From Microbacterium natoriense (GTDB taxonomy: Bacteria; Actinomycetota; Actinomycetes; Actinomycetales; Microbacteriaceae), in assembly GCF_030816295.1 (NCBI RefSeq), contig NZ_JAUSXV010000001.1:1054001-1118000 (forward strand): a DNA stretch of 64,000 nucleotides. The letters run 5' to 3'. Below, one piece after another: positions 25,183 through 41,631 of this stretch (its first letter is position 1; each line of letters opens with the position of its first letter). The translations under genes and the position numbers were made by a program. The notes under the pieces were generated by a model, which was not told where the DNA came from, did no database searches, and saw nothing but the letters and a program-made list of their open reading frames with translations.

Positions 25183-25748
25183 CGTCGCTCCGTACCGGGC
25201 CCGACGCACGAGACAGATGCGCCTGGGTCGGCGACGACGCGGAGTACCGGCGCTACCACGATGAGGAGTGGGGAACCCCGTTGCACGGCAACAGGGCGCT
25301 GTTCGAGAAGATGGCGCTCGAGGGCTTCCAGGCGGGGCTCAGCTGGATCACGATCCTGCGCAAGCGCCCGCGGTTCCGAGAGGTGTTCGCGGGCTTCGAC
25401 CCCGAGATCGTCGCGGAGTTCGGCGAGAGCGACGTCGAGCGCCTGATGGCGGATGCCGGCATCATCCGCAACCGCGCCAAGATCGGGGCCACGATCGGCA
25501 ATGCGCGCATCGTGCGCGAGATGGCCGAGGGTGAGCTCGACGAGCTGATGTGGTCGTTCGCGCCGTCCGCATCCGGCATCCGCCCTCGCGGCATGGCCGA
25601 CGTGCCGGCCGTCACGCCGGAGTCGACCGCGATGAGCAAGGAGTTGCGCCGACGGGGGTTCCGATTCGTCGGCGCGACCACGATGTACGCGCTCATGCAG
25701 TCGGCAGGCATGGTCGACGACCACATCGAGGGATGCTGGCGAGCCTGA
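25179..25748 (+). CDS. tag: DNA-3-methyladenine glycosylase I
   Basis: A 189-residue base-excision repair enzyme that removes 3-methyladenine from alkylated DNA. The start [37 protein letters not shown], and the end DDHIEGCW are diagnostic for Tag. The four zinc ligands are in place: Cys14, His27, His182 and Cys186. Length matches the family. It is translationally coupled to the preceding alcohol dehydrogenase through an ATGA overlap, an arrangement with no obvious functional logic. It is followed by the promoter of the kinase operon. Confidence 0.95.
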
Positions 25749-25776
25749 GCGCCGAAAGGCGACCCCTGACCACAGA

Positions 25777-25782
25777 TATAAT
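25777..25782 (+). promoter_or_regulatory. -10 box TATAAT of the kinase (PFNA-like) operon
   Basis: A consensus TATAAT in an otherwise GC-rich gap, 69 bp before the kinase GTG. It is followed directly by CCCC-GTT-GGGG, which could form a small hairpin at the 5' end of the transcript. No good -35 is seen. Confidence 0.6.
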
Positions 25783-25851
25783 CCCCGTTGGGGGAACTGC
25801 GCTATCGGGTCGATGCGCCTCTCGCCGTGAACGAACTCGAGGGGAATCGCA

Positions 25852-26979
25852 GTGGCCAAGCGCACCATGTCGGCACCACCGGTGCTCGCCGGGTACAGCT
25901 ATGTGCGCCCGCTGGGCTCCGGCGGCTTCGCCGACGTCTTCCTGTACGAGCAGGACCTGCCTCGACGCGTAGCCGCGGTCAAGGTGCTGCTGGCGGATGC
26001 CGTCAACCCCGAGGTGCTGCGCAACTTCAACGTCGAGGCCGACATCTCGGCCCGGCTCAGCGCGCATCCGGCGATCGTGACGATCTACCAGGCCTCGATC
26101 TCGTCCGACGGTCGGCCGTACATCGCCATGGAGTACTGCCCCGACAACATGGGCACCCGGTACAAGAAGGGCCCGCTGCCCGTCGCCGAGGTGCTCGACG
26201 CAGGCGTGCGCATCGCGGGCGCCCTCGAGACCGTGCACCGCGCCGGACTCCTGCACCGCGACATCAAGCCGTCGAACGTCCTGATGAGCTCGCTGGGCTC
26301 GCCCGTGCTCGCGGACTTCGGCATCGCCGCCGCGGTCGTCGACGAAGGCGACCCCGAGATCATCGCCATGTCGGTTCCGTGGAGCGCACCTGAAGTGCTG
26401 CAGGAGCGGATCTCCGGCTCGGTGGCCAGCGAGGTGTGGAGCCTCGCCGCCACGTTGTACACGCTGTTCGCGGGTCGCACGCCCTTCGAGAGCGACGACC
26501 GCTCCGCGAACTCGCGCGCACAGCTCACCAAGCGCATCGTCAAAGCGCACTACACCCCGGTGCCGGTTCCCGGTTTCCCGCGCGCGATCGACGACGTGCT
26601 CTCGACGGCCATGCAGCGCGACCCGTCTCGCCGTTTCTCGTCCATGGCCGAGTTCGCCGAGCGGCTGCGCTGGGCGCAGTACGACCTGGGCACCGCCCCC
26701 ACGGCCTTCGAAGCGGCCTCTGCCGAGTGGGCCGCCGCCGCGCCGGTCAACTTCTCCGATGCCGCACCCCGCGGCCCGGTCGTGACCACCGTCGACGAAG
26801 GCGGGCGCCGAGCGGTGCGCGCCGCCCGTCAAGACCGCGGGCCACGTGAACGCGACGAGCTGCCGGCGCCGTCCAGGCAGCGCTCGCCGCTCGCCGCGGG
26901 CCTCATCGGCGCCGGAGTCGGCATGGCGGTGCTCGCCGTCGTGGGGGTCGCCGTGCTCATGATGACGGGGGTGATCTGA
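25852..26979 (+). CDS. Serine/threonine protein kinase, membrane-anchored, no sensor domain
   Basis: A 375-residue Hanks-type kinase. The glycine loop is LGSGGFADV (residues 21-29), catalytic Lys44 (AAVKVL), HRDIKPSN with Asp137, DFG with Asp155, and SAPEVL closing the activation loop. After the kinase domain (about 15-280) comes a disordered linker and one C-terminal transmembrane helix (about 347-372), with almost nothing outside. There are no PASTA or other sensor domains, so the signal probably comes from a partner. GTG 25852 has GAGGGGA about seven bases upstream. It is the first gene of an operon and overlaps the giant gene start (TGATG). In the Bifidobacterium PFNA cluster the kinase Pkb2 occupies this place. 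Likely targets are the FHA protein and the repeat protein at the operon end (inference). Confidence 0.94.
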   Translation: MAKRTMSAPPVLAGYSYVRPLGSGGFADVFLYEQDLPRRVAAVKVLLADAVNPEVLRNFNVEADISARLSAHPAIVTIYQASISSDGRPYIAMEYCPDNMGTRYKKGPLPVAEVLDAGVRIAGALETVHRAGLLHRDIKPSNVLMSSLGSPVLADFGIAAAVVDEGDPEIIAMSVPWSAPEVLQERISGSVASEVWSLAATLYTLFAGRTPFESDDRSANSRAQLTKRIVKAHYTPVPVPGFPRAIDDVLSTAMQRDPSRRFSSMAEFAERLRWAQYDLGTAPTAFEAASAEWAAAAPVNFSDAAPRGPVVTTVDEGGRRAVRAARQDRGPRERDELPAPSRQRSPLAAGLIGAGVGMAVLAVVGVAVLMMTGVI

Positions 26980-29900
26980 TGCCGATCGGCGATCGTGCAG
27001 CCACCGAGACGCGGCCCCGTTCACGCAGCCGCGTCATCGCGGCCGTCGCCGGACTCGCGTCGCTCGCGGCCGTCGTCACGTTCGCGGTCACCGCCCAGGG
27101 ATACCAGGCGCAGGAGGTTCCGCGCCTGGAGTCGTCGGTATGGGTCATGCGCGACTCCGGTCAGTACGCACGCGTGAACACCGATCTCGCCGAGATCGAC
27201 ACGGTGCGCGACGTCGACTCCCCCGAGCACGTGTGGCAGAGCGGGGCGGATGCCGTGCTCTTCAGCCAGGGCTCCCGCCACCGCTGGGACCTCGATCCCG
27301 CCGATCCGCAGGACCTCCTCTCCGACTCTGGCGAGGAGGGCGCACCGCTCGCCTCGCAGCCCACTCCCGTCGGCACCCGTGAGATCGTCTCGGCCGGCTC
27401 CTACGTCGCTTATCGCACCGACACGGGCCAGGTCTCGGTGACGACTCTCGAGGCGAAGGCCGCCACCGCCCTCGTCGACCCGTTCGCCGAGGTCGAGGTG
27501 AAGAAGGGCGAAGAGAAGCCCACCTACACGGCCGACGCGATCGGGCTCTCGCCCGACGGCATCCTGGCGCTGTACTCGTCCGAGGAGTCGGCCGTCCGCC
27601 GCTTCGACGTCACCGAGCATCGTTTCATCGGCGACGGCGACAAGATCTCCTCCGCACCCAAGAGCACCGCAGGCCTCGCCATGACCGTGGTCGGCGATAC
27701 CTGGGCCCTTCTGCAGCTCGACAAGAGCAGGCTCTGGCTCTCCGGCCGCGGCGATCCCGTCAGCGTCGACCTCGGCGAGGGCGCGCTGCTGCAGAGCGGC
27801 GCCTCGTCCGGCGACGAGATCCTGATCGCCGATGCCGACGGGCTCGTCTCCGTTCCGCTGTCGGGCGGCAAGGCGACGCGCATCGCCGAGGCGAACGGCG
27901 TTCCCGCAGCTCCCGTCGTGATGAACGGGCACGCCTTCGCCGCCTGGATCGACACCGGCTCGGGAACCCTGTGGGCCGACGGCGACACAGTCCCGCTGAC
28001 GGTGCCGGACGCCGCACTCGAGTCCTCAGCCATTCGGCCGGTGCTGCAGACCAACGGCGACCGCACCGTGCTCGTCGAAGCGGGAACCGGCCTGATCTGG
28101 ACCGCGCCCGAGGGTCGTCTCATCCCGCTCGAGCAGTGGGCCATCGAGGACGAGACCGAACAGCAGGAGGGCACGGTCGTCGTCGAGGACGTCGCCGAGG
28201 AGCTCCCGCCAGTGGCGGTCGACGACTCCTTCGGAGTGCGCAGCGGCCAGCAGGTGATCCTGCCCGTGCTGTTCAACGACCACGACCCGAACAAGAAGGA
28301 CGTGCTCACGATCGACCCGGCGTCGGTCGGGGCGTTGGCGGATGCCGGCTTCGGCGACCTGTCGCTCGTCGGCAACGGGCAGTCGCTCGTCGTGAACGTG
28401 CGTGCGGCGTCAGGGCAGACGAGCTTCACCTACACGGTGACCGACGGAGCGGCGGTCTCCGAGCCGGCGACCGTGACCCTCACCGTGGTGAGCCCCGACG
28501 TGAACTCCGCCCCGGTGTGGTGCGGAGTCGAAGCGTGCCAGCAGGAGTGGCCAGCGCCTCAGCTGCTTCCCGGTGGCAGCACGATCGTCTCGGCGCTCGC
28601 GGGCTGGGTCGATCCCGAGGGCGACCCGTTCGTCCTCAGCGACGCCTACGAGACCGACTCCGCGGCACCCGTGATGGTCGTGCCGATGGCTGACGGGCGC
28701 GTGGCGATCCGCCACACCGATCCGAACGCCTCCGACGCCGCGATCGCGATCACGATCATCGTGCAGGACTCGCACGGCGCCACAGCCGAGAAGACCATCG
28801 AAGTGCGCGTCACCGGCAGCCCGACGATGGTGGCGGCTCCCGTCGCCCTCACCGTGCGCATCGATGAGCCCCAGTCGATCGACATCGCCGACCACCTCTC
28901 CGGCGGATCCGGCACGTACCGTCTGCTCGACGCCGTGCAGACCGCTGCGGCCGCCGAGGGACTCGAGGTGTCGCCGAACACCGCTGCGGGCACGGTCGAC
29001 GTCACGGTCGCCGTACCGGGCCAGTACATCGTCACCTACACCGCGCAGGACGTCACGACGCAGGCCGAGAAGTCGGCGGTGATCCGCATCACGGCGGTGG
29101 ACGGCTCGTCGGCTCTGGCCATGGCGCCGCTCACGGCGTTCGTGCGCGAGGGCGAGGACACCACGGTCGACGTGCTGCGAGCCGTGCAGAACACCAGCGG
29201 ACGCGTGCTGATCATCTCGGAGGCGTCGAGCTCGACCTCGCGCCTCAACGTCGGCATCGTCGGCAACGAGAGCATCCGCGTGAGCGGCACGACCGAGAAC
29301 GGCGAGTCGGGAGTGATCGGCACGGCCGGTGTCACGGTCGCCGACGGCGCAGGCGCCGCGGTGAAGGGCACAGTGACGGTCTTCCTCGCGCCGCCGTCAT
29401 CCGTCACACGTCCGATCATCTTCCCCGATGCGATCACCGTGCGGGCCGGCTCCCTCGCGCGCATCGACGTCGCTGCGAACGACGTCGCCCCGCGCGGCGA
29501 GGCGCTCATCGTGCAACCCGAGGTCATCGGTTCGGGGCAGCCCGACGAGCTGGTCTTCGCCGACGGCAACAGCCTGCGCTATCTCGCCCCGAGCACGCCT
29601 GGCACCTATCGCCTCACCTACGCCGTCTCGCTCGAGCGCAATCCCTCGCTCTCCGACAACGGAACGGTCACCGTGACTGTCGTTCCGCCCGGGACCAACC
29701 GCGCACCCACGCCCACCGGTCTCACCGGTCGCGTGCTCAGCGGGCAGACCGTCACGCTCACGGTGCCGACGACCGGGATGGATGCAGACGGCGACAGCGT
29801 CGTGCTGTCGGACGTCGCCCAGCCGGGCAAGGGACAGGGAACCGCCACCGTCACCGCCGCCGGCGACGCGATCGTGTACCGCGCGCCCGCTGCGGGCGTC

Positions 29901-32900
29901 GAGGGCGGCCAGGTGGCGTTCAACTACACGGTTCGCGACCCCGGGGGCGAAGAGGGCACGGGGCAGGTGCGCATCGGCGTGCTCGACGGCAAGGTCGACG
30001 ACGCGGCTCCCGTGACCTACAGCGACTACGTGCGGGTGCAGGCCGGTTCGTCGACGCCCGTCATCCTCGACCCGCGTGCCAACGACCTCGACCCGGCCCA
30101 GGGCGACCTCGAGCTGATCGAGCTCGTGCCGAACGCGCCGCAGGTCGAAGGCAACCCCGACTTCGAGCGGCTGAAGGCGCTCATCGACGACAGCACCTCG
30201 CTCGACGACGGCAGGGTCGTGCTGCGGGCGGGTGAGACCGAAGGCACGAACTCGTACATCTACACCGTGCGCTCGACCCGCACGCAGAGCACCTCGCAGG
30301 GCCTCGTCGTGGTCACGGTCACCGAAGACGCCGTGACCGACCAGCCCACCGTCGCCGACACCGTTCTCACCGCACGCACCAGGGGAGAGCTGGGCGACGG
30401 TGGTCTCGATGTCGTCACCGACCGGGTGCAGTGGACCTCGGGCGACACCGGGTCGCTCCGGCTCAGCCTGTGGGGCGAGCAGCCGGGCTTCACCGTGAAC
30501 GGCAGTCGTATCGTCGGTGAAGCGCCCGCGGAGGGTGCTCTGATCCCGTTCCAGCTGACTGGCACGGCCGAAGGCGGTCGAGAGGTGGTCGCCTACGGCT
30601 TCCTCCGCATCCCGCCGTTCGACGATCTGCGCGTGCAGCTGAAGCCGGGGGTCACACCCGTCGTGGTCGACGAGGAGAAGTCCAAGGCGTTCGACGTGAT
30701 CGACTACCTCGACCTCCCCTCGTCCGACCGGGTCGAGCTCGCGACCGGGGAGTTCACCGTGCAGCGCGCCGCCGCAGGCTGCACCGCGGAGGGAAAGCTG
30801 TCGGTCGAGTACTCGGCGGGCGCCGACGCGCCCTGGTCCGACACCTGTCTCGTGCAGGTGCGGCTGCAGGGCCAGCAGCGCTGGTCGTACGTCGAGGTGC
30901 CGATCGGCATCCGCCCCGCCGCCCCGCAGGTCGTGCTCACCTCGATCTCGCACACCGTGGCGCCGGGTGAGACCGAGACCGTCGACCTGTACTCGACCAT
31001 GACCTCCTGGGAGGGCGGTCGCGAAGGCGACCCGAAATCCCTCGACTTCGGCGTCGTCTACACCGGCTCCTCCTTCACGGTCACGCAGAACGGCTCGTCG
31101 GTGTCGATCCTCGCGAACGCCGATGCGAAGCCGGGCACGCGTGAAGACGTGGATGTGACCCTGACCGCCTTCGGCGGAGCCTCTGCATCCCTGCGCGTCG
31201 TCGTCGGGATCGCACCGCCCGACGCTCCCCGCGGCGCGACGCTGACGCGTCAGTGCGTCGTGACGAGCGCGAACTGCTCGATCGAGGTCGTCGGCGTGGC
31301 CGGCGAGTACGACCCGTTCCAGGGCAAGCCGGGGGCCGGCCTCACTCTGGTCTCGCTGGGCGAGGGCTCGCGCTGCGACGTCGCGACCGCCTCCGCATCG
31401 GGAGAGCGCGCGATCTCGGTGAGCTGGCCCGGTGGCGGCAAGGCGCCCGGCGGTCAGTGCATCTTCCCGTTCGTCGTCGCGGATGCGCAGGATCGCACAG
31501 GCACCGGGTCGCTCACGCTCGATCTGCAGGGTTATCCGCAGGCGCCCGCCAGCGTGACGACGGTCGGCTACACGCGGACCACGGTCGTTCTGGAAGTGCC
31601 GCTCGGTGAAGCCGCGAACGCGCACCCCGCCGTCACCTCGGTGACGATCATGCAGGACGGCGCCCCTGCGAACGCCTCGTGCTCGGCGTCCGGCGCCGTG
31701 TACCAGTGCACCGTGAGCGGACTCGTCACCGGTGCACCGCACAGCTTCACCGCGGTCGCCGTGAACTCCGTGGGGGCCTCGGCGCCGACCTCGGCGCACA
31801 CGAGCTGGGCATACGCGCCCCCCGAGGTGACGAACGTCACCGCGACTCCCGTCTATCGCCCCGGCGTCACCGACACCACGCGGGGCGTCGCGGCCCTGTC
31901 GATCACGTCGTCGAACGACGCGGCGTCGTTCCGCGTGCAGGAGACCGGCGAGATCATCCAGCGTCAGGGGCCGACGACCACGGCAGACATCGTGCTGAGC
32001 CCCGGCGGCCAGTCGGTCACGATCGTGCCGATCAGCCAGTTCCAGCCGCCCGCGGGCAACATCGGCAACGAGGGCGGCGCCTTCCCCGTCTCCGTGCAGG
32101 TCGCTGGCGCTCCCTACTTCGACCCGCGGTCGCCGAGCGCGCAACCCGTGTCGAACACGTCGGTCAACGTCTCGGGGATCGCCGCACAGAGCAACGGCAG
32201 CACGCAGCCGCTCACCGTGAAGTACGTCGCCTGGCGTTCGGGCAACGTGAGCTGTACGGTCGACGGCAACGGCGGTTTGATCGTCTCCGGAGGCATCGCC
32301 TCTGACTCCCCGTCGATCGGCAATCTCGAGCAGTACAAGCGCTACAACGTCAAAGCCTGCGTGTCGAACGGCTTCGGCGTCGGCGAGTCGAACACGACCA
32401 CCGTGTTCACCTTCACTTCGGTCAGCGGCCCCGGCGGCAACACCACGTACTCCGTGGCGACCTCTCCGCAGCAGAACGGCAGCACGTACACCTACGGGCT
32501 GGCCTCGGCGCCACTCGCCGACGGTCGAGGCGGAATTCACGCCGTGGTACCTGCTGTACGGCACCTGGCGCACCGATTTCACCCTCTCGTCGGACTCGGC
32601 ACCGGGGCAGATCAGCGTCAAGGCGTGCAACAACTCCGAACCCGACAAATGCTCGGGGACGGCGCCGATCACGGCGGCCACCGCCCCCACCACCGTGAAG
32701 GTGACATTCGACGCCTGCCTGCCGCTGGTGGACCAGCAGAGCGCGGTGAACGTCTCGGCGGCCGCGAGCGGCTCGTACAGCTTCTCAAGGACCGCCGTTC
32801 CCGACACGATCGGCGTCTACGACGTGAAGATCGACTTCACCGGCGCCTACAACACCCTGTCGACCATCACACATCGGATGAACCTGTGCTGAGCGCGCAG

Positions 32901-32933
32901 CATCCGATCCGAAAGGAAGCCCGGATCTCATGA
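26979..32933 (+). CDS. Giant Ig-like/fibronectin type III surface protein (PFNA-type), frameshifted near the 3' end
   Basis: An N-terminally anchored (VIAAVAGLASLAAVVTFAV) giant extracellular protein, about 1980 residues. Residues about 40-400 look like a divergent beta-propeller; then come about eight tandem bacterial Ig/cadherin-like modules, many with acidic ND-D/DADGDS loops, then Fn3-like domains. The open frame runs to TGA 32931-32933, but from about 32515 its translation turns into Arg/His-rich nonsense. Frame +1 gives a sensible protein (TPWYLLYGTWRTDF... to NLC) ending at TGA 32890-32892, just before the MoxR ribosome site. A one-base insertion in GACGGTCGAG is the simplest cause; sequencing error or real mutation cannot be separated. 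ATG 26979 overlaps the kinase stop. Role inferred: surface adhesin or assembly substrate. Confidence 0.88.
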   Translation: MPIGDRAATETRPRSRSRVIAAVAGLASLAAVVTFAVTAQGYQAQEVPRLESSVWVMRDSGQYARVNTDLAEIDTVRDVDSPEHVWQSGADAVLFSQGSRHRWDLDPADPQDLLSDSGEEGAPLASQPTPVGTREIVSAGSYVAYRTDTGQVSVTTLEAKAATALVDPFAEVEVKKGEEKPTYTADAIGLSPDGILALYSSEESAVRRFDVTEHRFIGDGDKISSAPKSTAGLAMTVVGDTWALLQLDKSRLWLSGRGDPVSVDLGEGALLQSGASSGDEILIADADGLVSVPLSGGKATRIAEANGVPAAPVVMNGHAFAAWIDTGSGTLWADGDTVPLTVPDAALESSAIRPVLQTNGDRTVLVEAGTGLIWTAPEGRLIPLEQWAIEDETEQQEGTVVVEDVAEELPPVAVDDSFGVRSGQQVILPVLFNDHDPNKKDVLTIDPASVGALADAGFGDLSLVGNGQSLVVNVRAASGQTSFTYTVTDGAAVSEPATVTLTVVSPDVNSAPVWCGVEACQQEWPAPQLLPGGSTIVSALAGWVDPEGDPFVLSDAYETDSAAPVMVVPMADGRVAIRHTDPNASDAAIAITIIVQDSHGATAEKTIEVRVTGSPTMVAAPVALTVRIDEPQSIDIADHLSGGSGTYRLLDAVQTAAAAEGLEVSPNTAAGTVDVTVAVPGQYIVTYTAQDVTTQAEKSAVIRITAVDGSSALAMAPLTAFVREGEDTTVDVLRAVQNTSGRVLIISEASSSTSRLNVGIVGNESIRVSGTTENGESGVIGTAGVTVADGAGAAVKGTVTVFLAPPSSVTRPIIFPDAITVRAGSLARIDVAANDVAPRGEALIVQPEVIGSGQPDELVFADGNSLRYLAPSTPGTYRLTYAVSLERNPSLSDNGTVTVTVVPPGTNRAPTPTGLTGRVLSGQTVTLTVPTTGMDADGDSVVLSDVAQPGKGQGTATVTAAGDAIVYRAPAAGVEGGQVAFNYTVRDPGGEEGTGQVRIGVLDGKVDDAAPVTYSDYVRVQAGSSTPVILDPRANDLDPAQGDLELIELVPNAPQVEGNPDFERLKALIDDSTSLDDGRVVLRAGETEGTNSYIYTVRSTRTQSTSQGLVVVTVTEDAVTDQPTVADTVLTARTRGELGDGGLDVVTDRVQWTSGDTGSLRLSLWGEQPGFTVNGSRIVGEAPAEGALIPFQLTGTAEGGREVVAYGFLRIPPFDDLRVQLKPGVTPVVVDEEKSKAFDVIDYLDLPSSDRVELATGEFTVQRAAAGCTAEGKLSVEYSAGADAPWSDTCLVQVRLQGQQRWSYVEVPIGIRPAAPQVVLTSISHTVAPGETETVDLYSTMTSWEGGREGDPKSLDFGVVYTGSSFTVTQNGSSVSILANADAKPGTREDVDVTLTAFGGASASLRVVVGIAPPDAPRGATLTRQCVVTSANCSIEVVGVAGEYDPFQGKPGAGLTLVSLGEGSRCDVATASASGERAISVSWPGGGKAPGGQCIFPFVVADAQDRTGTGSLTLDLQGYPQAPASVTTVGYTRTTVVLEVPLGEAANAHPAVTSVTIMQDGAPANASCSASGAVYQCTVSGLVTGAPHSFTAVAVNSVGASAPTSAHTSWAYAPPEVTNVTATPVYRPGVTDTTRGVAALSITSSNDAASFRVQETGEIIQRQGPTTTADIVLSPGGQSVTIVPISQFQPPAGNIGNEGGAFPVSVQVAGAPYFDPRSPSAQPVSNTSVNVSGIAAQSNGSTQPLTVKYVAWRSGNVSCTVDGNGGLIVSGGIASDSPSIGNLEQYKRYNVKACVSNGFGVGESNTTTVFTFTSVSGPGGNTTYSVATSPQQNGSTYTYGLASAPLADGRGGIHAVVPAVRHLAHRFHPLVGLGTGADQRQGVQQLRTRQMLGDGADHGGHRPHHREGDIRRLPAAGGPAERGERLGGRERLVQLLKDRRSRHDRRLRREDRLHRRLQHPVDHHTSDEPVLSAQHPIRKEARIS

Positions 32934-33895
32934 CCATCGCGAAAGAGCAGGCGGCCTGGTTCGCCGAGACGTTCTCGATCCTCGCCGGCAACGTCGAGCA
33001 GGCCATCCTCGGCAAGCGCCACGTCGTCGAGCTGGTGCTCGCCGCGGCCGTGACCGGCGGCCACGTGCTGCTCGAGGACTTCCCCGGCACCGGCAAGACC
33101 GCGCTCGCGCGGTCGATCGGGCAGACGATCGACGGCGTCAGCTCGCGCATCCAGTTCACGCCCGACCTGCTTCCCGGAGACGTCACCGGCATCACGGTGT
33201 ACGACCAGAAGCAGGGCACCTTCGAGTTCCACGCGGGGCCGATCTTCGCCAACATCGTGCTCGCCGACGAGATCAACCGCGCATCGCCGAAGACGCAGTC
33301 GGCGCTGCTTGAGGTCATGGAAGAGGGCACGGTCACGGTCGACGGCGTCTCGCGCCCCGTCGGATCGCCGTTCCTCGTGATGGCCACCCAGAACCCGATC
33401 GAGCAGGGCGGCACCTACCGCCTGCCAGAGGCGCAGCTCGACCGCTTCATGATCAAGACCTCGATCGGCTACCCCGACGACGCCGCGACCATGCGCATCC
33501 TGCAGGGGGCGGCGACCGTGAAGCCGCCGCTCAAGGGCATCGCCGGCACCGACACGATCCTCACGATGGCCGAGATGGCCCGTGAGGTGTACGTGAACCC
33601 GCTGATCTCCGACTACATCATGCGCATCGTCGACGCCACCCGTCGCGCCTCCGAGGTGCGCCTGGGCGTGAGCGTGCGCGGAGCCTTGGCGCTCTCGCGT
33701 CTCGTGATGACCTGGGCCGCGAAATCGGGTCGCACCTTCGTGACGCCCGACGACGTGCGCGACCTCGCGGTCACAGCCCTCGCGCACCGCCTCGTCCTCG
33801 AGCCGGAGGCCGAGTTCGACGGCGTCACGGCCGTGGCCGTCGTGGGGCAGATCCTGCTCGACGTCGAACCGCCCCGTGAGAACGGGACTGCGTGA
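32930..33895 (+). CDS. MoxR family AAA+ ATPase
   Basis: A 321-residue AAA+ ATPase of the MoxR group, proposed chaperones for assembling or activating partner proteins. Walker A is EDFPGTGKT (residues 50-57), Walker B is IVLADEIN (Asp113-Glu114) followed by [16 protein letters not shown], and sensor 1 is MATQNPIEQ. The C-terminal lid domain is complete. GAAAGGA lies 13 bases upstream of the ATG. It overlaps the DUF58 start by four bases (GTGA), the usual MoxR-DUF58 pairing; it probably acts on DUF58 and the giant surface protein. A paralogue is at 62.7 kb. Confidence 0.95.
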   Translation: MTIAKEQAAWFAETFSILAGNVEQAILGKRHVVELVLAAAVTGGHVLLEDFPGTGKTALARSIGQTIDGVSSRIQFTPDLLPGDVTGITVYDQKQGTFEFHAGPIFANIVLADEINRASPKTQSALLEVMEEGTVTVDGVSRPVGSPFLVMATQNPIEQGGTYRLPEAQLDRFMIKTSIGYPDDAATMRILQGAATVKPPLKGIAGTDTILTMAEMAREVYVNPLISDYIMRIVDATRRASEVRLGVSVRGALALSRLVMTWAAKSGRTFVTPDDVRDLAVTALAHRLVLEPEAEFDGVTAVAVVGQILLDVEPPRENGTA

Positions 33896-35262
33896 GCTAC
33901 AGCACCGAATCGCGTATCACGCGCACCGCCGCCGGGACGAGCACCTCGACCCGGACGTCGACGGTGACGCGATACGACCGCACGCGCCGCGGACCGGTCC
34001 GCGGCGCGGTGTTCGGCACGCGCAGGATGCTGCGCCGCACCGGACGGATGCTTCGTCGCGTGTACGCCTGGATCGGCGAGACCGTCACCGCCGCAGGCGT
34101 CCTGGTCTCTGCGGCCCTGGTGCTGGGCCTGGTCTGTGGTCTGCTGTTCGGCTGGGTCGAGGCGTGGGCGGTGGCGGCGATCGCCTTCGTGCTGCTCGTG
34201 GTCTGCATCCCGTTCATCCTCGGTGAGCACGACTACCGCATCGAACTCGCACTCGGCCGCGACCGCGTGGTCGCCGGCACCGACATCGGGGCGGTGCTCG
34301 ACGTACGCAACAACGGCTCGCGCCTCGCGCTGCCGGGCGTCGTCGACGTGCCGGTGGGCGAGGGGCTGGTCGAGGCGCACGTCCCGCTGCTGCGACCCGA
34401 AGGGCACCACCGCGAGGAGCTCACGATCGCGGCGCATCGCCGCGGCATCATCGACGTGGGCCCCATGACCATCACGCGCGGCGACCCCATCGGCATCCTC
34501 CGCCGCGAGTTGAGCTGGCCCGAGGTGCAGCGCATCCACGTGCATCCGGTGACTGTTCGCATCCCCAGCACGAGTGCGGGGCTCATCCGCGATCTCGAAG
34601 GAACCCCGAGCTCGGTGCTCGTCGACGCCGACCTCTCGTTCCACGCCGTGCGGGAGTACGTGGTGGGTGACTCGCAGCGCCACGTGCACTGGAAGTCGAC
34701 CGCCAAGACCGGCAAGCTCATGGTGCGGCAGTACGAGGAGTCGCGCCATGCGCGGATCGCGATCATCCTCGATCTCGCCGCGTCGTCGTACGACAGTGAT
34801 GACGAGTTCGAGACGACCGTGAGCGCCGCGGCGTCTCTCGCCCTGCAGGGCGTCACCGAGGGTCGCGACGTGTTGTTCGTCGTGAGCAACGAGATCCCCG
34901 AGCACGCACGAGCCGAGGTGCTGTCGATCAGCACGCTGCCGACCGTGACCCCGAAGGCGCTCTTGGATGCGACGAGCGGCGTCGACGCCGCCGACAACGT
35001 GATGCGCCTCGAATCCGTGACGAAGCTCACAGTCCAGTCCTACCCCGACCTGTCGATCGCGTTCCTGATGACGGGTTCGCTCATGCCTCTGGATCGCCTG
35101 AGGATGGCGGCGATCTCGCTGCCGGCCGCCGTGGAGGCGGTCGCCGTGCGCTCCGAGCTCGGCCAGGAGCCGACCCTGCGCAGCGCGCGGGAGCTCGTGG
35201 TGATGACGCTCGGCGCTCTCGGAGACCTGCCGCAGATGCTCGCTCGCGGAGTCCTGAAATGA
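33892..35262 (+). CDS. DUF58 domain-containing membrane protein
   Basis: A 456-residue protein with a basic Thr/Arg-rich cytoplasmic N-terminus (about 60 residues), two close transmembrane helices (about 66-110) and a large domain containing the DUF58 core VREYVVGDSQRHVHWKSTAK followed by TGKLMVRQYEE. The C-terminal part is likely a vWA-like fold. DUF58 proteins are the standing partners of MoxR ATPases. Start GTG 33892 overlaps the MoxR stop and the stop overlaps the transglutaminase start, both by four bases, so all three are made in coupled translation. Exact role unknown. Confidence 0.92.
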   Translation: MSYSTESRITRTAAGTSTSTRTSTVTRYDRTRRGPVRGAVFGTRRMLRRTGRMLRRVYAWIGETVTAAGVLVSAALVLGLVCGLLFGWVEAWAVAAIAFVLLVVCIPFILGEHDYRIELALGRDRVVAGTDIGAVLDVRNNGSRLALPGVVDVPVGEGLVEAHVPLLRPEGHHREELTIAAHRRGIIDVGPMTITRGDPIGILRRELSWPEVQRIHVHPVTVRIPSTSAGLIRDLEGTPSSVLVDADLSFHAVREYVVGDSQRHVHWKSTAKTGKLMVRQYEESRHARIAIILDLAASSYDSDDEFETTVSAAASLALQGVTEGRDVLFVVSNEIPEHARAEVLSISTLPTVTPKALLDATSGVDAADNVMRLESVTKLTVQSYPDLSIAFLMTGSLMPLDRLRMAAISLPAAVEAVAVRSELGQEPTLRSARELVVMTLGALGDLPQMLARGVLK

Positions 35263-37793
35263 GCGGCACGGCGGCTCGACGCGAGCAGGATTCCCTGTTC
35301 AGCGTGCTGAACCTGTGGGGCCTCGGCTACGTCTTCGCCGGCGTCGTGCTCGCGACGCTCGCGGCCTGGCCCGTGTACGACGCGCCGCGCGCGATCGTCG
35401 TCGGCATCGTGGGAGGGCTCGTCGGCATCGCCGCGGCCGTCGTCGCCCGGGTGCTGCGCTGGGGCACGCTGCTCGCCGCGCTGCTCGCCGCGGTCGCCTA
35501 TGTCGTCGTCGCCGTGCCGCTCGCCATCCCCTCCGCGCTGTCGTCGCCGGGCGCGTTCTTCGGCGGGCTGCGCGACGCCGTACTGGGCATCGTGCTGGGC
35601 TGGAAGCAGATCCTGACGCTGAATCCGCCGCTGGGCGAGTATCAGGCGGTGCTCATCCCGTTCCTCGTCGTCGTGCTGTTCGGCGCCTTCATCGCGAGCC
35701 TTCTCGTGCTCGGCCGCAGTAGCCGGCGCTCCACGTTCGCCGTGATCGTGGTGTCGGCCATGAGCGTGTTCGGCATCGCGTTCGGCGCCACCGGCACCAG
35801 CGCCCCTGTCGTGCTGCTCGGGTTCACGCTTCCGTCTCCGCGCGAGTGGGTCATCGGCGTCGCGGTCTTCGTCATCGCCCTGGTCTTCCTGGTCGGGGCG
35901 TCCCGCCTCCGGCGCGCGCGGGCGCTGCGCGCCGTCGCCGCGCACAACATCACGCGGCGGGCGGCTCCGGTATGGCTCAGCATCCGCCGCCATCTGCTGT
36001 CGGGTGCGCTCATCGTCGTCGCGCTGGTGGCCGGTCTCGCGATCGCCCCTGCGGCAGCGGGCTGGCACGATCGCTCGGTGCTGCGCGACGAGGTCGAGCC
36101 GATGATCGTGGTGCAGCAGCAGTCGAGTCCTCTCAGCGAGTACCGGTCGTGGTTCACGGCCGAGCGCGCCGACGAGACGGTCGTGAAGATCGACGGCGAC
36201 CCCGGTGCCATCGAGCGCATCAGGATCGCGACCCTCGACGCCTACGACGGCCAGGACTTCCACATCGCCGCAGACGACCGATTCACCCGACTGCCGCGTG
36301 CCGCGGCCCCCGGCGATGGCCGGGTGCAGCTCGGCATCACGGTGGGCGACGCGTACAGCGGGATCTGGGTGCCGACCCCATCGGGGCTCGCGCAGGCGCC
36401 CACGTTCTCGGGTTCGCGTGCCGACGAACTGGCCGACGGCTTCCACGTGGATGCCGACGGAGACACCGCGATCACGATCGCCGAGACCTCAGGCACGGGA
36501 GCAGGTCTCGTGCCGGGCGACCGCTACAGCGTGCTCGTCGACGCCCCGGGTAAGCCCGCTTCGCTGACCGACGTGCAGGGAGGGGAGTCGCTGCTCGACG
36601 CCGATGATCATCCCGCCCTCGCGGAGTGGGCGGACATGCAGGAGCTTCCGCGCACCGGAGCCGGTTTCCTGGAGCTGATCGAGAGGCTGCGGGCCCGCGG
36701 CTATCTCTCGCACGCACTGCTCGACGACGAGGCGGCGGCGACGTGGATCGCCGCACTGAAGGCGTCGGAGGGCTACTCGTTCGCCCCCAGCTACGCCGGA
36801 CACTCCACGGCGCGGATCGAGGAGCTCTTCACATCGTTGGTCGAACAGCAGCGCAGGGCCGGCGCCGATGCGACGCCCGAGATGCTCGTGGCGGCCGTCG
36901 GCGACGACGAGCAGTTCGCCACCGCGGCCGCCCTGCTCGCGCAGCTGTGGGGTCTCGAATCGCGCGTCGTCCTCGGCGCACGCCTCCCCGCGGCTGACGA
37001 GGTGCCGGGTGTGCCCGCCTGCGACACCGAGTGCACAGGGGCGAACATGACCGCCTGGGTCGAGGTACGCGCGTCAGGCGGAGAATGGGCCGCGGTCGAC
37101 GTCACGCCGCAGTACTCGCAGCTTCCGAGTCTGATCACGGAGGGCGAGCAGCTGCCCGAGCACCCGACGGTGCCCGAGCAGCCGCATTCGGAGGCTCTCG
37201 ACCCGCCGCAGGCGCAGAGCGACTCGCATGACGGAGAGGTGCCGCCCGAGCCGGTCGCCTCCGACGCGCTCGCGGTCGTGCTGTTCATCGCGCGCATCGT
37301 CGGCCTCAGCCTGCTCGCGCTCGCTCTGCTGCTGCTTCCGCTGATCGTGGTGCTCGTGGTCAAGGCTCTGCGCAGCAAAGCTCGTCGCACCGCGGCGGAC
37401 CCGGAAGTGCGTCTGGTGGGAGCGTGGGAAGAGCTCACCGACGTGTATCTCGACCACGAGATCCCGATCTCGACCGAGGGCACCAGGGTGCAGAGCGCCC
37501 GCACCGTCGAGCGTCCCGCCGCAGAGCGTCTCGCACGAGCCGTCGACCAGGCCGTCTTCGCCGCGCATCCGCCCGGTGAGGACGACGCCGATCACGCCTG
37601 GAGCGTCGTCGACGAGGAACGCGAGGCGCTGCGCGCCGAGCAGAGCCGATGGGCCGCTCTGCGGTCACGGCTGCGCCTGAGGTCGTTCGTAGCCAGGATC
37701 GCGCCGACACGGAGGATCGCGTTCGGGAGCCGCCACCTGGCACTCGGTACGCTCGCATTGGCCGGTCCCCGCCGGCAGGAGGAGGACGCATGA
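35259..37793 (+). CDS. Transglutaminase-like membrane protein lacking catalytic Cys and His
   Basis: An 844-residue protein with about seven N-terminal transmembrane helices (residues 15-270), an extracytoplasmic domain with a transglutaminase-like fold (about 480-625), and one more helix (about 670-700) before a cytoplasmic tail. This is the TgpA-like layout of MoxR/DUF58 operons. The catalytic Cys site (G-x-C-x-x-F-A in active enzymes) reads GDDEQFA, with Asp550 in its place. The HAWVEV motif reads TAWVEV, with Thr598. Only Asp614 (VDVTPQ) is kept. It is therefore probably an inactive, binding-only version. Two cysteines (CDTEC, just before Thr598) may form a disulfide. ATG 35259 overlaps the DUF58 stop (ATGA). 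Confidence 0.88.
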   Translation: MSGTAARREQDSLFSVLNLWGLGYVFAGVVLATLAAWPVYDAPRAIVVGIVGGLVGIAAAVVARVLRWGTLLAALLAAVAYVVVAVPLAIPSALSSPGAFFGGLRDAVLGIVLGWKQILTLNPPLGEYQAVLIPFLVVVLFGAFIASLLVLGRSSRRSTFAVIVVSAMSVFGIAFGATGTSAPVVLLGFTLPSPREWVIGVAVFVIALVFLVGASRLRRARALRAVAAHNITRRAAPVWLSIRRHLLSGALIVVALVAGLAIAPAAAGWHDRSVLRDEVEPMIVVQQQSSPLSEYRSWFTAERADETVVKIDGDPGAIERIRIATLDAYDGQDFHIAADDRFTRLPRAAAPGDGRVQLGITVGDAYSGIWVPTPSGLAQAPTFSGSRADELADGFHVDADGDTAITIAETSGTGAGLVPGDRYSVLVDAPGKPASLTDVQGGESLLDADDHPALAEWADMQELPRTGAGFLELIERLRARGYLSHALLDDEAAATWIAALKASEGYSFAPSYAGHSTARIEELFTSLVEQQRRAGADATPEMLVAAVGDDEQFATAAALLAQLWGLESRVVLGARLPAADEVPGVPACDTECTGANMTAWVEVRASGGEWAAVDVTPQYSQLPSLITEGEQLPEHPTVPEQPHSEALDPPQAQSDSHDGEVPPEPVASDALAVVLFIARIVGLSLLALALLLLPLIVVLVVKALRSKARRTAADPEVRLVGAWEELTDVYLDHEIPISTEGTRVQSARTVERPAAERLARAVDQAVFAAHPPGEDDADHAWSVVDEEREALRAEQSRWAALRSRLRLRSFVARIAPTRRIAFGSRHLALGTLALAGPRRQEEDA

Positions 37794-39877
37794 TCGCGGT
37801 CGCAGACCCCAGGTTCCTGGCAGAGGTCACTGCCCCCGACCTCGTCGCGGCATCGGCCGTCGTCACGGGCGTGACCGCACTCATCGGGCTCGGCGTGTAC
37901 GTCTGGTACGCGTTCGCCCTGTCGAAGCTCTTCCCGAAGCTCGAGCAGGACGCCTGGAAGGGTTGGGTTCCCGTTCTCAACGAGGCGACGATCCTGCAGA
38001 TCGGCGGTCGGCCCGCCTGGAACGTCGTGTTCTACTTCATTCCGATCGTTCAGCTGTACGGTCTGTACCTCAAGGTTCTCGCGACCCACGACATCAACAA
38101 GCGGTTCGGCCGCGGTGCGGGATTCACCGTGCTCGCGGTGCTGCTGCCGCCGGTGTGGGCGACGCTGCTCGCGTGGGGCGCCCCGCCGTATCCCGAGGGC
38201 GACCGGCTCGCGGGCCTGCACGGTCCTCGTCGGGTGGGAACGGATGCTGCGCGCGCCGCCGGCGCGCCCTCAGGCCAGGGCTTCCTCGCCGCGCCGATCC
38301 CGCATGCGGGCGCCGCTCCTGGTCCCGCATCCTTCGCACCCGCTCCGGGCTCTTTCGCACCGGCGCAGCCCGCGGCGCCGGGCGCATTCGCCCCGCAGGG
38401 CTTCGTTCCGCAGCCACCGGCACCGGGATCCGGTCCGGCGGCCTACGTCGATCCGAGGTATTCGGATGCCGCTGCGCCTGATGTGACCATCCCGGCGCTG
38501 AACCGCACGAGCGCCTCGACGGTCGATGCGGCCACCGGGCTTCCGTCTCCCGCCTTCGAGCAGCCGGCTCCCCCGCAGCCGGCGCCTCTGCCCATTTCAC
38601 AGGGCCTGATCGACTCCGTGCCCGGCGTCGCCCCCCACGTGCCGTCCGCAACGGTCGAAGCCGAGCCGCAGAAGCCCGTCGTGCCGGTGGAGCCTGCTGC
38701 TCCGGCGGCGCCGGTGGAGCCTGTGCAGCCCGTCGAGCCCAGCGTGCAGTATCAGCCGGTGGAACCGTCTCAGCCGGCCCCGCCTCCTGCGCCGGTTCAG
38801 CCCGCCGAGCCGACGCCGCCCGTCTCGCCCGTGCAGCCGGTCGCTCCGCATGATCCGTACTTCCCGGTTCCTGCTGAGCCTGCTCCTGCTGAGCCTGCTC
38901 CTGCTGAGCCGACCTGGCCGGCCTCGCCCGCGGCTCCGGCCCACCCGGCTCCCGCCGATCCGGCTCCGGCCCAGCCCGCCTGGCCTGCCCCGTTCGAGAC
39001 TCCGGCGCCGCCCGCAGAGTCCGTCGCACCCGCTCAGCCGGTCGCGTCCGCCCAGCCGATCGCGCCGGCACAGCCGGTCGCACCCGCTGAGCCGGCTGGC
39101 GTCGCTCAGCCTGCCGATCCCGGCGCGACGCCGCCTCCCCCCGCGGCGCCGCAACAGGAGCCGCTGGTATCCGCACCCATTCCGCCCGAATCACCGGCGG
39201 CCCCCGACGCGTCAGCTCCCTCGGCCGCTCTCGGGCCGGTCCCCTCCGCAGCCGAGGCGCCTGCTCCGCCCGCATACGACGGCGGCGCCGCCAGCGACGA
39301 GCCGCCGGTGGCGCCGGAGCCCGCCGCTGAGGGCGCTCCCGAAGCCCCGGCATCCGATCCCTTCGCCGAGCCGCAGCGTCTTCGCGGCTCGGGCCTGGGA
39401 ACCCGCGCCGACCGTGCGGCGTCGATCAAGCCCGTCCCGGTGGTGCTGCCGGTTCCCGAGCCCCAGGTTCCCGTCGCCGCGGCGGCGCCCGAACCCGCGA
39501 CCGCTGATGACGACATCGAGGCGACGGTCGTCGTGCATCGCAGCCGCGGTCCTCGTCGGGTGCTCGTTCTCGACGACGGGCGCACCTTCGCCCTCTCGGC
39601 GACGAGCATCGTGATCGGCCGCAACCCCGAGGGCGATCCGGGCGAGCAGCGTCTGTCGATCCCCGACAAGACGCGCACTCTGTCGAAGACTCACGCGCGT
39701 CTCGTCGTGCAGGGCGAAGAGTGGCGTCTCACCGACCTGCACTCGACCAACGGCGTCGTGGTCGTCGCCGATGACGGCGCCGAGACCCTGCTCGACGCCG
39801 GTGAGAGCGTGACCGGAGCCGGGCGGTTCGTGCTCGGTGAAGTCGGCATGCACGTCGCGGTGGAGTCCGGTTCGTGA
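37790..39877 (+). CDS. FHA domain protein with N-terminal membrane domain and long Pro/Ala/Glu-rich linker
   Basis: A 695-residue phosphopeptide-binding protein. Residues about 18-140 form a DUF5684-like membrane domain (LSKLFPKLEQDAWKGWVPVL, then further helices). About 430 residues of Pro/Ala/Val/Gln/Glu-rich linker follow, with units such as EPAPAEPAPAEP and QPVAPAEP. The C-terminal FHA domain (about 590-690) keeps the phosphothreonine-binding residues: IGRNPEG, LSKTHARL and LHSTNG. The domain should read threonines phosphorylated by the operon's kinase, for example those in the repeat protein two genes downstream (inference). ATG 37790 overlaps the previous stop. The same position in PFNA clusters is held by an FHA gene. 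Confidence 0.92.
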   Translation: MIAVADPRFLAEVTAPDLVAASAVVTGVTALIGLGVYVWYAFALSKLFPKLEQDAWKGWVPVLNEATILQIGGRPAWNVVFYFIPIVQLYGLYLKVLATHDINKRFGRGAGFTVLAVLLPPVWATLLAWGAPPYPEGDRLAGLHGPRRVGTDAARAAGAPSGQGFLAAPIPHAGAAPGPASFAPAPGSFAPAQPAAPGAFAPQGFVPQPPAPGSGPAAYVDPRYSDAAAPDVTIPALNRTSASTVDAATGLPSPAFEQPAPPQPAPLPISQGLIDSVPGVAPHVPSATVEAEPQKPVVPVEPAAPAAPVEPVQPVEPSVQYQPVEPSQPAPPPAPVQPAEPTPPVSPVQPVAPHDPYFPVPAEPAPAEPAPAEPTWPASPAAPAHPAPADPAPAQPAWPAPFETPAPPAESVAPAQPVASAQPIAPAQPVAPAEPAGVAQPADPGATPPPPAAPQQEPLVSAPIPPESPAAPDASAPSAALGPVPSAAEAPAPPAYDGGAASDEPPVAPEPAAEGAPEAPASDPFAEPQRLRGSGLGTRADRAASIKPVPVVLPVPEPQVPVAAAAPEPATADDDIEATVVVHRSRGPRRVLVLDDGRTFALSATSIVIGRNPEGDPGEQRLSIPDKTRTLSKTHARLVVQGEEWRLTDLHSTNGVVVVADDGAETLLDAGESVTGAGRFVLGEVGMHVAVESGS

Positions 39878-40707
39878 CACTCGCATCCGTCGTCCTCAAC
39901 GTCGCAGCGCTCAGCGATCTCGGCTTGAAGCGCGCCGTCAACGAGGACTCGGTGTTCGCAGAGTCGCCCGTCTTCCTCGTCGCCGATGGCATGGGCGGGC
40001 ACGCGGCAGGAGACAAGGCCAGCCAGGCCGTGGTCGCCGCATTCGCGCCGCTGGCAGGCACGCGGGTGTCGACGGCCGAGATCGGCGCCGCACTCGCCCG
40101 CGCGAACGAGGCGGTGTCGACGATCTCGGCCCAGCATTCGCGCGGCGCCGGAAGCACGGTCGCGGCCGTCGCCCTCGTCGAGTACGAGGAGGTGCCGCAC
40201 TGGCTGGTGTTCAACGTCGGCGATTCGCGTGTCTATCGTCATCACGGCAACGAGCTCGAGCAGCTCACGATCGACCATTCGCTGGGTCAGGAGCTCGTCG
40301 ACGCGGGCGAGCTGCGTGCTGAGGATCTCGCGACCTTTCCGCAGCGCAATGTCATCACACGGGCGATCGGCGCCGACGACAACATGGCCGACAGCTGGCT
40401 GGTGCCGGTCGTGAACGGCGAGCGGCTGCTGATCTGCTCCGACGGGCTGAGCGGCGAGGTCAGCGACGAGGGCATCAGGGCGACTCTGACCATGTGCGGA
40501 CGTCCCGAGACCGCGGCTGCCGCTCTCGTGCGCCGGGCCAAGCAGGCGGGTGGGCGCGACAACATCTCGGTCGTCGTGGTCGACGTCGTCTCGGGCGGAA
40601 TAGCGGGCGGTCTGCAGGACTCCACCGACAGCCGCCAGTCCTCCTCGGCGGTGCACACGTCGACCATGCTCGAAGGCACCACGGTCCCCGTGAGGAGGCG
40701 CGGCTGA
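39874..40707 (+). CDS. PP2C-family serine/threonine phosphatase
   Basis: A 277-residue metal-dependent phosphatase that would reverse the operon kinase. The metal-binding motifs are all present: NEDSVF with Asp, VADGMGGHAAGD, NVGDSRVYR, CSDGLSGEV and GGRDNISVVVVD. A short C-terminal extension (about 35 residues, Ser/Thr-rich, ending VPVRRRG) has no membrane helix, so it is cytosolic. GTG 39874 overlaps the FHA stop by four bases. It equals PrpC/Stp-type phosphatases of other actinobacterial kinase loci, and the phosphatase gene of the PFNA cluster. Confidence 0.95.
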   Translation: MTLASVVLNVAALSDLGLKRAVNEDSVFAESPVFLVADGMGGHAAGDKASQAVVAAFAPLAGTRVSTAEIGAALARANEAVSTISAQHSRGAGSTVAAVALVEYEEVPHWLVFNVGDSRVYRHHGNELEQLTIDHSLGQELVDAGELRAEDLATFPQRNVITRAIGADDNMADSWLVPVVNGERLLICSDGLSGEVSDEGIRATLTMCGRPETAAAALVRRAKQAGGRDNISVVVVDVVSGGIAGGLQDSTDSRQSSSAVHTSTMLEGTTVPVRRRG

Positions 40708-41528
40708 TGGACTCCGACGACGACATCCCCGAGGCGACGGTGAGACTCACCCGCCGGGTGCGTCGGCGCAGCCAGGCGGGCGAGGGGCCGATCCCAGCGG
40801 ATGCCGGCACCGAGGCCGTCGCAGGGGACGGCGCCGACGAGGATTCGCCGATGGTCGAGGACCGCACCGTCGTGATGGGTCGACGCCGGCGTGCCGTGGA
40901 TGCGGAGTCCGATGACGACGTCGACGAGGATTCGCCGATGGTCGAGGACCGCACGGTGGTGATGGGTCGACGCCGGCGTGCCGTGGATTCCGAGTCCGAT
41001 GACGACGTCGACGAGGATTCGCCCCTGGTCGAGGATCACACCGTCGTGATGGGTCGTCGGCGTCGCGGCGGCGCAGACGATTCCGAGTCCGACGACGACC
41101 TCGATGAACACACGCACATGATCGACGATCGCACCGTCGCGGTGGAGCGGCGGCGTCGACCAGATCTGACGGCTGACGAGGTTTCCGTCGAGGACCGCAC
41201 GGTCGCGGTCGAGAGGCGCCGACGGACGGATGCTCCACCGGAGCGCGCAAAGGACGACGAAGAGCTCTACGACACCGTGAGCCGTCCTCCGGCTGCCGAA
41301 GTGGAGAAGCCCCCGGCCATCTACAAGCCTCGTGCAGCGCCGCGCACACCGCACCGTCCTCCTGCGTCTCCTGGAGACATCGCTCCGACCCGCGTGATCG
41401 ACGCCGACAGGGTCTCGGTGGCGAAGGCCGCACGCCGGCGCAGCCTGTATGCCGTCGCTGCCGTGTCGGGGGCCTGCGTCGTGTCGGCCGTCGGCCTGGT
41501 GCTCCTCGGATTCAGCGTCCTCCTCTGA
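40707..41528 (+). CDS. Tail-anchored protein with repeated EDRTVVMGRRRR motifs, candidate kinase substrate
   Basis: A 273-residue protein of no family I know. It has a strongly charged cytoplasmic part and one C-terminal transmembrane helix (SLYAVAAVSGACVVSAVGLV). The N-terminal 180 residues hold five units with the core (E/D)D(R/H)TV(V/A)-x2-RRRR: three of the form VEDRTVVMGRRRR (one has DHTVV) and two ending TVAVERRRR. An earlier EATVRLTRRVRRR is a sixth, looser copy. Acidic residues before Thr and hydrophobic residues after it are common in actinobacterial kinase sites and in FHA ligands. Its place as last gene after FHA and phosphatase supports a phospho-docking role (inference). ATG 40707 overlaps the phosphatase stop by one base. 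Confidence 0.8.
   Translation: MDSDDDIPEATVRLTRRVRRRSQAGEGPIPADAGTEAVAGDGADEDSPMVEDRTVVMGRRRRAVDAESDDDVDEDSPMVEDRTVVMGRRRRAVDSESDDDVDEDSPLVEDHTVVMGRRRRGGADDSESDDDLDEHTHMIDDRTVAVERRRRPDLTADEVSVEDRTVAVERRRRTDAPPERAKDDEELYDTVSRPPAAEVEKPPAIYKPRAAPRTPHRPPASPGDIAPTRVIDADRVSVAKAARRRSLYAVAAVSGACVVSAVGLVLLGFSVLL
40836..41102 (+). repeat. Three tandem 87-93 bp coding repeats
   Basis: Units start at 40836, 40923 and 41010; the first two are 87 bp (29 codons) and nearly identical, the third is 93 bp. Two more diverged half-units follow to about 41230. Each codes for DEDSP-x-VED-x-TVVMGRRRR plus an acidic ESDDD spacer. Confidence 0.85.
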
Positions 41529-41565
41529 TCGCGCTTCCCCCGAATCGTGCTTCCTCTGAATCGCG

Positions 41566-41579
41566 CTCGGCGCGCCGAG
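41566..41579. other. 14-bp perfect palindrome CTCGGCGCGCCGAG
   Basis: Lies in the 103-bp gap between the convergent repeat-protein gene and the DUF222/HNH gene. It has no loop, so it is a weak terminator candidate at best; it may be chance in such GC-rich DNA. Confidence 0.3.
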
Positions 41580-41631
41580 GGAGGGTGCCCCCCGCGCCAT
41601 AGCGTGAACGCTGAACCCGGTGCGTGATCGG

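Follow-up and report, generated by a model that had tools for sequence, protein, structure and literature searches.

Is the PFNA gene cluster a speciality of bifidobacteria, and on what could its kinase and phosphatase act? Both questions are raised by a stretch of 64,000 nucleotides of Microbacterium natoriense (the window), in which eight genes follow each other head to tail on the + strand at 25852-41528. They encode a Ser/Thr kinase, a giant propeller/Ig/Fn3 protein, a MoxR ATPase, a DUF58 protein, a transglutaminase-like protein (TGM), an FHA protein, a PP2C-type phosphatase and a repeat protein, here called the ladder protein (Table 1). This operon is confirmed here, and its core is found in relatives far beyond the genus. 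Taken as a whole, the locus is best explained as part of an old envelope system of actinobacteria, in which it represents one lineage (type A) and which would be controlled by the kinase, the ladder and the FHA protein; to this explanation we give slightly less than an even chance.

Layout and spread of the operon

The core order of kinase, giant, MoxR, DUF58 and TGM is present in all 40 loci that were fetched from Microbacteriaceae, so that the gene set is not a chance arrangement. These loci come from 37 of 120 genomes and were chosen among the higher-ranking DUF58 matches, hence they are not a random sample; the DUF58 search itself matched 106 of the 120 genomes, paralogues included. Beyond the family, a profile made from the first 560 residues of the giant (A1, threshold E 1e-3) matched 154 of 248 genomes of the order, among them Cryobacterium, Agromyces, Curtobacterium, Leifsonia and others. 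Of these matches 135 are better than 1e-40, and the 19 worse ones may be matches of Ig domains only. In a sample of the phylum 38 of 246 genomes matched, mostly by the Ig part alone; two genomes of other classes (G595 and G522) combine a near whole-profile match with the core genes, the kinase gene being the last one in G522. Core genes also stand in loci of four further families (f3, f9, f10 and f18), with the kinase last in those of f3 and f18 (L092, L093). The operon is widely conserved and is a variant of the PFNA kind.

Two types can be told apart by the kinase. Type A kinases (24 of the 40 loci) end 0-11 residues past the last hydrophobic segment, that of L056 being unconvincing, while type B kinases (16 loci; L057, L059-L073) have an outside part of 87-100 residues after it. 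The kinase of the window has one C-terminal transmembrane (TM) helix and almost no outside domain. The types also differ in where the best FHA and PP2C matches per locus are found in stretches of up to 20 kb: in type A the FHA gene is downstream of TGM in 20 of 24 loci and the PP2C gene in 18 of 24, in type B, 12 of the 16 loci have the PP2C gene upstream of the kinase gene. A midpoint-rooted tree of DUF58 and TGM (103 tips, Bifidobacterium thinned; L174, a Cryobacterium, carries a wrong group label) places type A in a clade of 35 tips that includes members of f9 and f10 (support 1.0). The 24 Bifidobacterium tips form a separate clade (1.0), type B groups with named Microbacteriaceae (0.75), and three loci with the kinase last are united (0.99), a second cluster of this genome among them.

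How this relates to PFNA has to be seen against the literature. As described in an excerpt of PMC8430577, PFNA has the five core genes pkb2-fn3-aaa-atp-duf58-tgm, followed in some species by prpC, a hypothetical gene and fha; the linked genes are called unique to bifidobacteria there, co-transcription is reported, and section 5 of that paper describes phosphorylation of MoxR by Pkb2. In the part of PMC10688814 that treats the operon it is said to be found only in Bifidobacterium, with FN3 domains that may come from eukaryotes, and a passage of a review likens the mycobacterial moxR operon to PFNA (PMC12067865). Among papers in PubMed Central with Creative Commons licences we found no report of the whole cluster outside Bifidobacterium. 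The genomes show that a restriction to Bifidobacterium does not hold. The initial annotation, which presented the operon as a complete PFNA-like set outside Bifidobacterium, was right about the location, but the case is not exceptional, since the giant is found across the order. The gene-order comparison that it had proposed as a check came out in its favour for the core genes, with synteny in the family loci and in Bifidobacterium. Its statement that the first seven genes match PFNA goes too far, because only the five core genes match in order. In a Bifidobacterium locus (L080, family f4), which agrees with the published order, the core is followed by PP2C, an LRV_2 protein and FHA, whereas FHA, PP2C and the ladder follow here. 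PFNA and the window share the five genes in the same order, a giant of about 2000 residues (1,994 in B. longum GT15, according to PMC10688814), a TGM that lacks the catalytic triad, and a Thr motif (DWDSTVLSSS in L080) before the FHA domain. They differ in the continuation with prpC, an LRV_2 protein with two LRV_2 stretches and fha, in their tree clades, and in that no Thr array is seen in the LRV_2 protein. For L080 and L081, the idea that the ladder corresponds to gene 7 of Bifidobacterium was rejected, since gene 7 encodes the LRV_2 protein in both.

Within the operon of the window, neighbouring genes overlap by 1, 4, 4, 4, 4 and 1 bases at the six ordinary junctions; the exception is the junction after the giant, whose frame is broken, and both the overlaps and the frameshift had been read correctly in the initial annotation. 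The overlaps suggest that the eight genes may be co-transcribed, and a single signalling-plus-surface machine, as postulated before, is a reasonable reading. A simple scan of 25500-41800 returned neither a sigma-70-like promoter nor a + strand terminator. The starts called for the FHA and ladder proteins (37790 and 40707) differ from those of the mechanical open reading frames (ORFs), 37649 and 40494. In the giant, for which Pfam reports Big_9 and cadherin-like domains and a weak fn3 match under the cut-off, the reading frame switches near 32.5 kb. The first frame thereafter reads as sequence unlike the rest of the protein, and the other frame gives a plausible protein end with a stop at 32890-32892, 37 bases before MoxR. 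In 40 of 40 relatives a single uninterrupted frame of 1932-2379 residues encodes the giant. The break is therefore not conserved, and programmed frameshifting was rejected in favour of a lesion or an assembly error.

A transglutaminase fold without its triad

The best match of the predicted TGM ectodomain model (predicted TM score, pTM, 0.86) in a Foldseek search is the transglutaminase TgpA (6g4h, E 4.8e-10). Thus, TGM has a TgpA-like fold, and yet it lacks the Cys-His-Asp triad. None of 133 aligned rows, distinct as aligned although some species occur twice (for example as L080 and L096), has Cys at the catalytic position, which is occupied by S (52), D (38), A (25), Q (10), G (5) or E (3). 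His is kept at its position in four rows and Asp in 73. Around the Cys site the sequence reads GD-x-E-Q-F/Y-A, with E and Q invariant. The 54 rows from Bifidobacterium have S or G at the Cys position, never His at the His position and Tyr at the Asp position in 47. Two other transglutaminase-domain proteins of the genome of the window (L175, L177), which serve as controls, retain Cys and His. In a profile alignment the His of TgpA stands opposite a Thr of TGM. TgpA was found with this profile, and a search of the PDB with the single TGM sequence gave no match. The designation as transglutaminase, if taken to mean an enzyme, is contradicted by these alignments. TGM looks like an inactive transglutaminase fold, a pseudo-enzyme, and the loss of the catalytic Cys throughout, Bifidobacterium included, looks new. 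The TGM of this genome's second cluster and those of L089, L092 and L093 keep the His and not the Cys, perhaps as an intermediate step of triad loss.

In the TgpA operon (PA2875-PA2872), we take PA2875 and PA2874 to be MoxR and DUF58. TgpA lies within a predicted four-gene operon of Pseudomonas aeruginosa, has kept its triad and is active, and the excerpt describing it mentions no kinase, giant or FHA partner (PMC3507681). The likeness to the window is the fold of the TGM ectodomain, and the difference is the active triad, of which TGM lost Cys and His.

The other catalytic proteins keep their motifs, also in loci whose TGM lost its triad. The kinase is of the Hanks type: the catalytic Lys and the Asp residues of HRD and DFG are present in all 63 aligned rows. 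All 62 MoxR rows show Walker A (GTGKT) as well as Walker B (DE), and PP2C has the Asp of the DG and DN metal-site motifs in 47 of 47. A role of DUF58 as a metal-dependent VWA adaptor was rejected, its DxSxS-type motif being degenerate in the alignment.

The threonine ladder and the FHA protein

No Pfam family was found for the eighth protein, and a search with its sequence matched only three of 150 family genomes, its own included. Sequence search performs poorly because the protein is of low complexity, and position and motif were used instead. By these means ladders were counted in 28 loci: 19 of the 24 type A loci, the window, three of five further loci of the genus (L075-L079), four of four in f10 and one in f9 with only two motifs; L074, which is cut by a contig end, is outside this count. 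The ladder sits near the end of type A operons and has a common plan: 129-801 residues with repeats of the form acidic-x-Thr-V/I/R-V/I...Arg, 2 to 18 loose motif copies, and then one C-terminal hydrophobic segment, which is present in 28 of 28 (19-residue hydropathy 2.02-3.32). An unfiltered scan of 4396 ORFs gave 47 in all. Of these, 20 combine dense motifs with a hydrophobic segment at the C-terminus that scores above 2.0, and all 20 are ladder-position genes; the other 27 (giants, some TGM, others) are not ladders. An earlier motif scan with a coding filter had missed several ladders.

The motif is highly biased in its residues. Among 195 aligned loose motifs, 179 have D/E at position -2, 115 have V at +1 and 146 have R at +5. 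Of the residues in the cytoplasmic parts of the 28 ladders, 196 of 457 Thr lie in a loose motif, against 34 of 447 Ser (Fisher p 2e-36); 500 residue shuffles gave a mean of 58 and a maximum of 80. Under the strict rule, applied to 19 loci, the ladders hold 93 Thr and 0 Ser motifs (16.65 per 1000 residues, at least one in 19 of 19) and the FHA proteins 16 Thr and 0 Ser (2.06 per 1000, in 14 of 19); the other six protein families of these loci have 0.14-0.34 per 1000. The motif is thus nearly restricted to the ladder and the FHA protein. In 22 of 27 loci, under a second motif-picking rule, a copy stands directly before the FHA domain, and so it does in the window, an arrangement like that of GarA/OdhI. 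In 19 close ladder homologues (P0001-P0019; P0001 at 96% identity, P0017 from M. foliorum, some from short contigs, the seven with organism names all Microbacterium) each protein has 1-7 units. Of the 89 units in total, 86 have Thr as the motif residue and none has Ser. FHA domains read phosphothreonine, and Thr without Ser is therefore the expected signature of their targets. From this sequence pattern we infer that the ladder may be a multivalent phosphothreonine array read by the FHA protein. The membrane-anchored acidic-x-Thr-hydrophobic array, with a motif common to the ladder and the region upstream of the FHA domain, looks new. It provides a concrete candidate substrate for an orphan set of kinase, phosphatase and FHA protein, and, with the FHA protein as its partner, it may be a natural bacterial example of multivalent phosphothreonine-FHA pairing.

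Several observations weigh against this reading. Eight of the 28 ladders (L042, L047, L050, L076, L085, L086, L088, L091) failed the unfiltered scan and were assigned by position and by eye, and most others were found by the motif itself, which makes part of its enrichment circular. The motifs do not count as independent events, and the history of the repeats is left out of account by the residue shuffle. For the window itself, the strict motif is found three times in the ladder, twice in the FHA protein (once in its membrane part) and also twice in TGM, and the FHA proteins of L039 and L056 have no motif. No ladder was seen in five of the 24 type A loci (L041 ends at a contig end) and in two of the five further loci of the genus (L078, L079). 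An array of Thr motifs with a C-terminal TM segment was likewise absent, within the stretches examined, from the 16 type B loci and from 80 named loci, of which the Bifidobacterium stretches mostly end before fha. Co-variation between the ladder motif and the FHA-linker motif within a locus is weak (p 0.072 with the first rule, 0.018 with the changed rule), kinship being uncorrected; L035, a near-copy of L034, was left out of this test. The FHA loci L179-L181, L184 and L185 of the genome of the window were excluded from the analysis as a whole, as they had probably been read from the wrong strand.

If the preferred explanation is right, type A and the PFNA cluster of Bifidobacterium are two lineages of the same old envelope system of actinobacteria. 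On the outside, the giant would be anchored with its propeller at the membrane and an Ig/Fn3 stalk, and the TGM ectodomain, no longer an enzyme, would be a partner with a binding or structural role. This surface complex might be remodelled from the inner face by the MoxR ATPase, for which DUF58 is a putative adaptor. The kinase would phosphorylate Thr in the motif before the FHA domain and in the ladder copies, the FHA domain would bind the ladder phosphothreonines, and the membrane FHA protein would be gathered on the ladder and the state of the machine thereby set; PP2C would reverse the phosphorylation. The motif adjoining the FHA domain could act as a competing self-switch, as in GarA/OdhI. 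We infer phosphorylation, FHA binding, clustering, the action of MoxR on the surface complex and the output of the system. A more specific claim is possible, though rather doubtful: a dedicated, membrane-anchored phosphothreonine ladder of variable copy number would set the surface machine by gathering the FHA protein multivalently, the pseudo-transglutaminase would be the non-enzymatic outer partner of this machine, and the role of PFNA in host immunity would be a late use of an older device.

Related principles are known from other systems. In the threonine phosphorylation pathway of the type VI secretion system (T6SS; PpkA/PppA/Fha) a kinase, a PP2C phosphatase and an FHA protein control a membrane machine; unlike there, Pfam finds no T6SS gene among the eight. 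GarA/OdhI carry an ETTS peptide, and phosphothreonines of the kinase recruit the FHA substrate, as reported in the relevant part of PMC8546545. The short acidic-Thr-hydrophobic-Arg motif before an FHA domain is common to GarA/OdhI (with PknG) and the window, but GarA and OdhI are metabolic regulators, and a ladder partner is not described in that part. Rv1747 forms phosphorylation-dependent condensates and, according to PMC11326607, combines phosphothreonine-binding domains and a disordered linker with control by kinase and phosphatase. This resembles the window, although sites and domains lie on one transporter there and the ladder and its reader are separate proteins here.

Other explanations start from the same genes. 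One could take PFNA as published, a bifidobacterial host-communication operon with cytokine-meeting FN3 domains and an enzymatic TGM, and the window as a horizontally moved copy. The shared core genes and gene order fit this, as does the cytokine binding of FN3 reported in parts of the Bifidobacterium literature, which may be a later use in gut species. We consider it very improbable, since the giant matches in 154 of the 248 genomes of the order, mostly strongly and in environmental genera too, type A and Bifidobacterium form separate, fully supported clades, and none of the 54 Bifidobacterium rows has kept the Cys. The order-wide spread, with soil and water relatives included, and the absence of Cys in every row undercut the view in print of a Bifidobacterium-only immune operon with a perhaps eukaryote-derived fn3 and an enzymatic tgm, and the PFNA-type set looks like a general cell-surface control device rather than a gut speciality. 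Decay of the operon in this strain, the frame-broken giant being a relic, appears quite unlikely. The neighbouring cluster, like this operon, contains a giant with a frame change (one of its three), but the other seven genes of the operon are open, the kinase, MoxR and PP2C keep their catalytic motifs, relatives are intact and the breaks could be assembly errors.

The remaining alternatives accept the machine and differ in what the ladder does. It might stay unphosphorylated, its acidic and basic repeats attaching it by charge to lipid, nucleic acid or the FHA protein. In line with this, acidic residues ahead of the Thr and Arg behind it are strongly preferred. Charge alone would leave unexplained why the residue is Thr and not Ser (93 to 0 under the strict rule, and the 86 of 89 homologue units), why hydrophobic residues stand at +1/+2 and why the same motif occurs beside the FHA domain, and we regard it as unlikely. 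Just as unlikely, in our view, is a ladder that merely buffers the kinase, soaking up phosphorylation and delaying the FHA self-switch without any scaffolding. The excess of strict sites on the ladder over the FHA protein (93 against 16) and the drift of copy number among close relatives speak for such a buffer, while the hydrophobic segment at the C-terminus of every ladder suggests that membrane placement matters.

A motif in the tail of PP2C (LEGTTVPVRRRG in the window) was considered as a further substrate and rejected as not general, since the strict motif occurs in one of the 16 PP2C proteins of the 19 ladder loci and lies outside the tail there. A PDB search with the FHA domain gave two weak matches only, to FHA parts of a GGDEF protein. 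The repeats of the ladder are separated from its membrane helix by a juxtamembrane stretch (41310-41441) with Tyr-x-Pro-Arg and Thr-Arg-Val, which is kept in close homologues; a similar stretch was seen by eye in several other loci.

The second cluster and other features of the window

Table 1. Features of the window with their positions.
Feature	Position	Strand	Remarks
Ser/Thr kinase	25852-26979	+	GTG start; AGGGGA directly 5'; Pfam Pkinase 8e-40
Giant surface protein, first frame	26979-32933	+	TM helix, beta-propeller, Big_9/cadherin-like Ig domains, weak Fn3
Giant, last piece, other frame	32524-32892	+	From sequence and separate translation
MoxR AAA+ ATPase	32930-33895	+	AAA_3 1.3e-60
DUF58 protein	33892-35262	+	PF01882 2.2e-11; DxSxS-type motif degenerate
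TGM, membrane protein with TgpA-like transglutaminase-fold ectodomain	35259-37793	+	Transglut_core 1.2e-7; catalytic Cys and His absent
FHA protein	37790-39877	+	Membrane part (DUF5684), then a long Pro-rich linker, a single Thr motif and the FHA domain at the C-terminus
Thr motif DIEATVVVHRSR	39512-39547	+	Directly N-terminal to FHA domain
PP2C-type phosphatase	39874-40707	+	PP2C_2 4.6e-10; NF033484 (Stp1-type, NCBIfam) 1.4e-55, under its curated cut-off
Thr-ladder protein	40707-41528	+	Thr motifs: 7 by the loose rule, 3 by the strict rule; juxtamembrane stretch and TM helix at the C-terminus
Juxtamembrane stretch of ladder protein	41310-41441	+	Conserved-looking; retained in close homologues
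Second cluster, giant paralogue 1	44132-50212	+	
Second cluster, giant paralogue 2	50255-56471	+	Split over two frames (50255-53164, 53052-56471)
Second cluster, giant paralogue 3	56562-62660	+	
Second cluster, MoxR	62701-63672	+	Later genes mostly past window end
Subtilase	2022-5114		PA, inhibitor I9 and fn3_6 domains

Directly downstream of the operon, behind a DUF222 gene and a DUF4870 gene, a second related cluster (L094) extends from 44132 to the end of the window at 64000 and on to about 73009. Its order is three tandem giants, MoxR, DUF58, TGM, FHA, PP2C, a second FHA-domain protein and, in last position, the kinase. Both clusters together comprise four giants in 47 kb. The frame split of the middle giant of the second cluster is either real or an assembly error.

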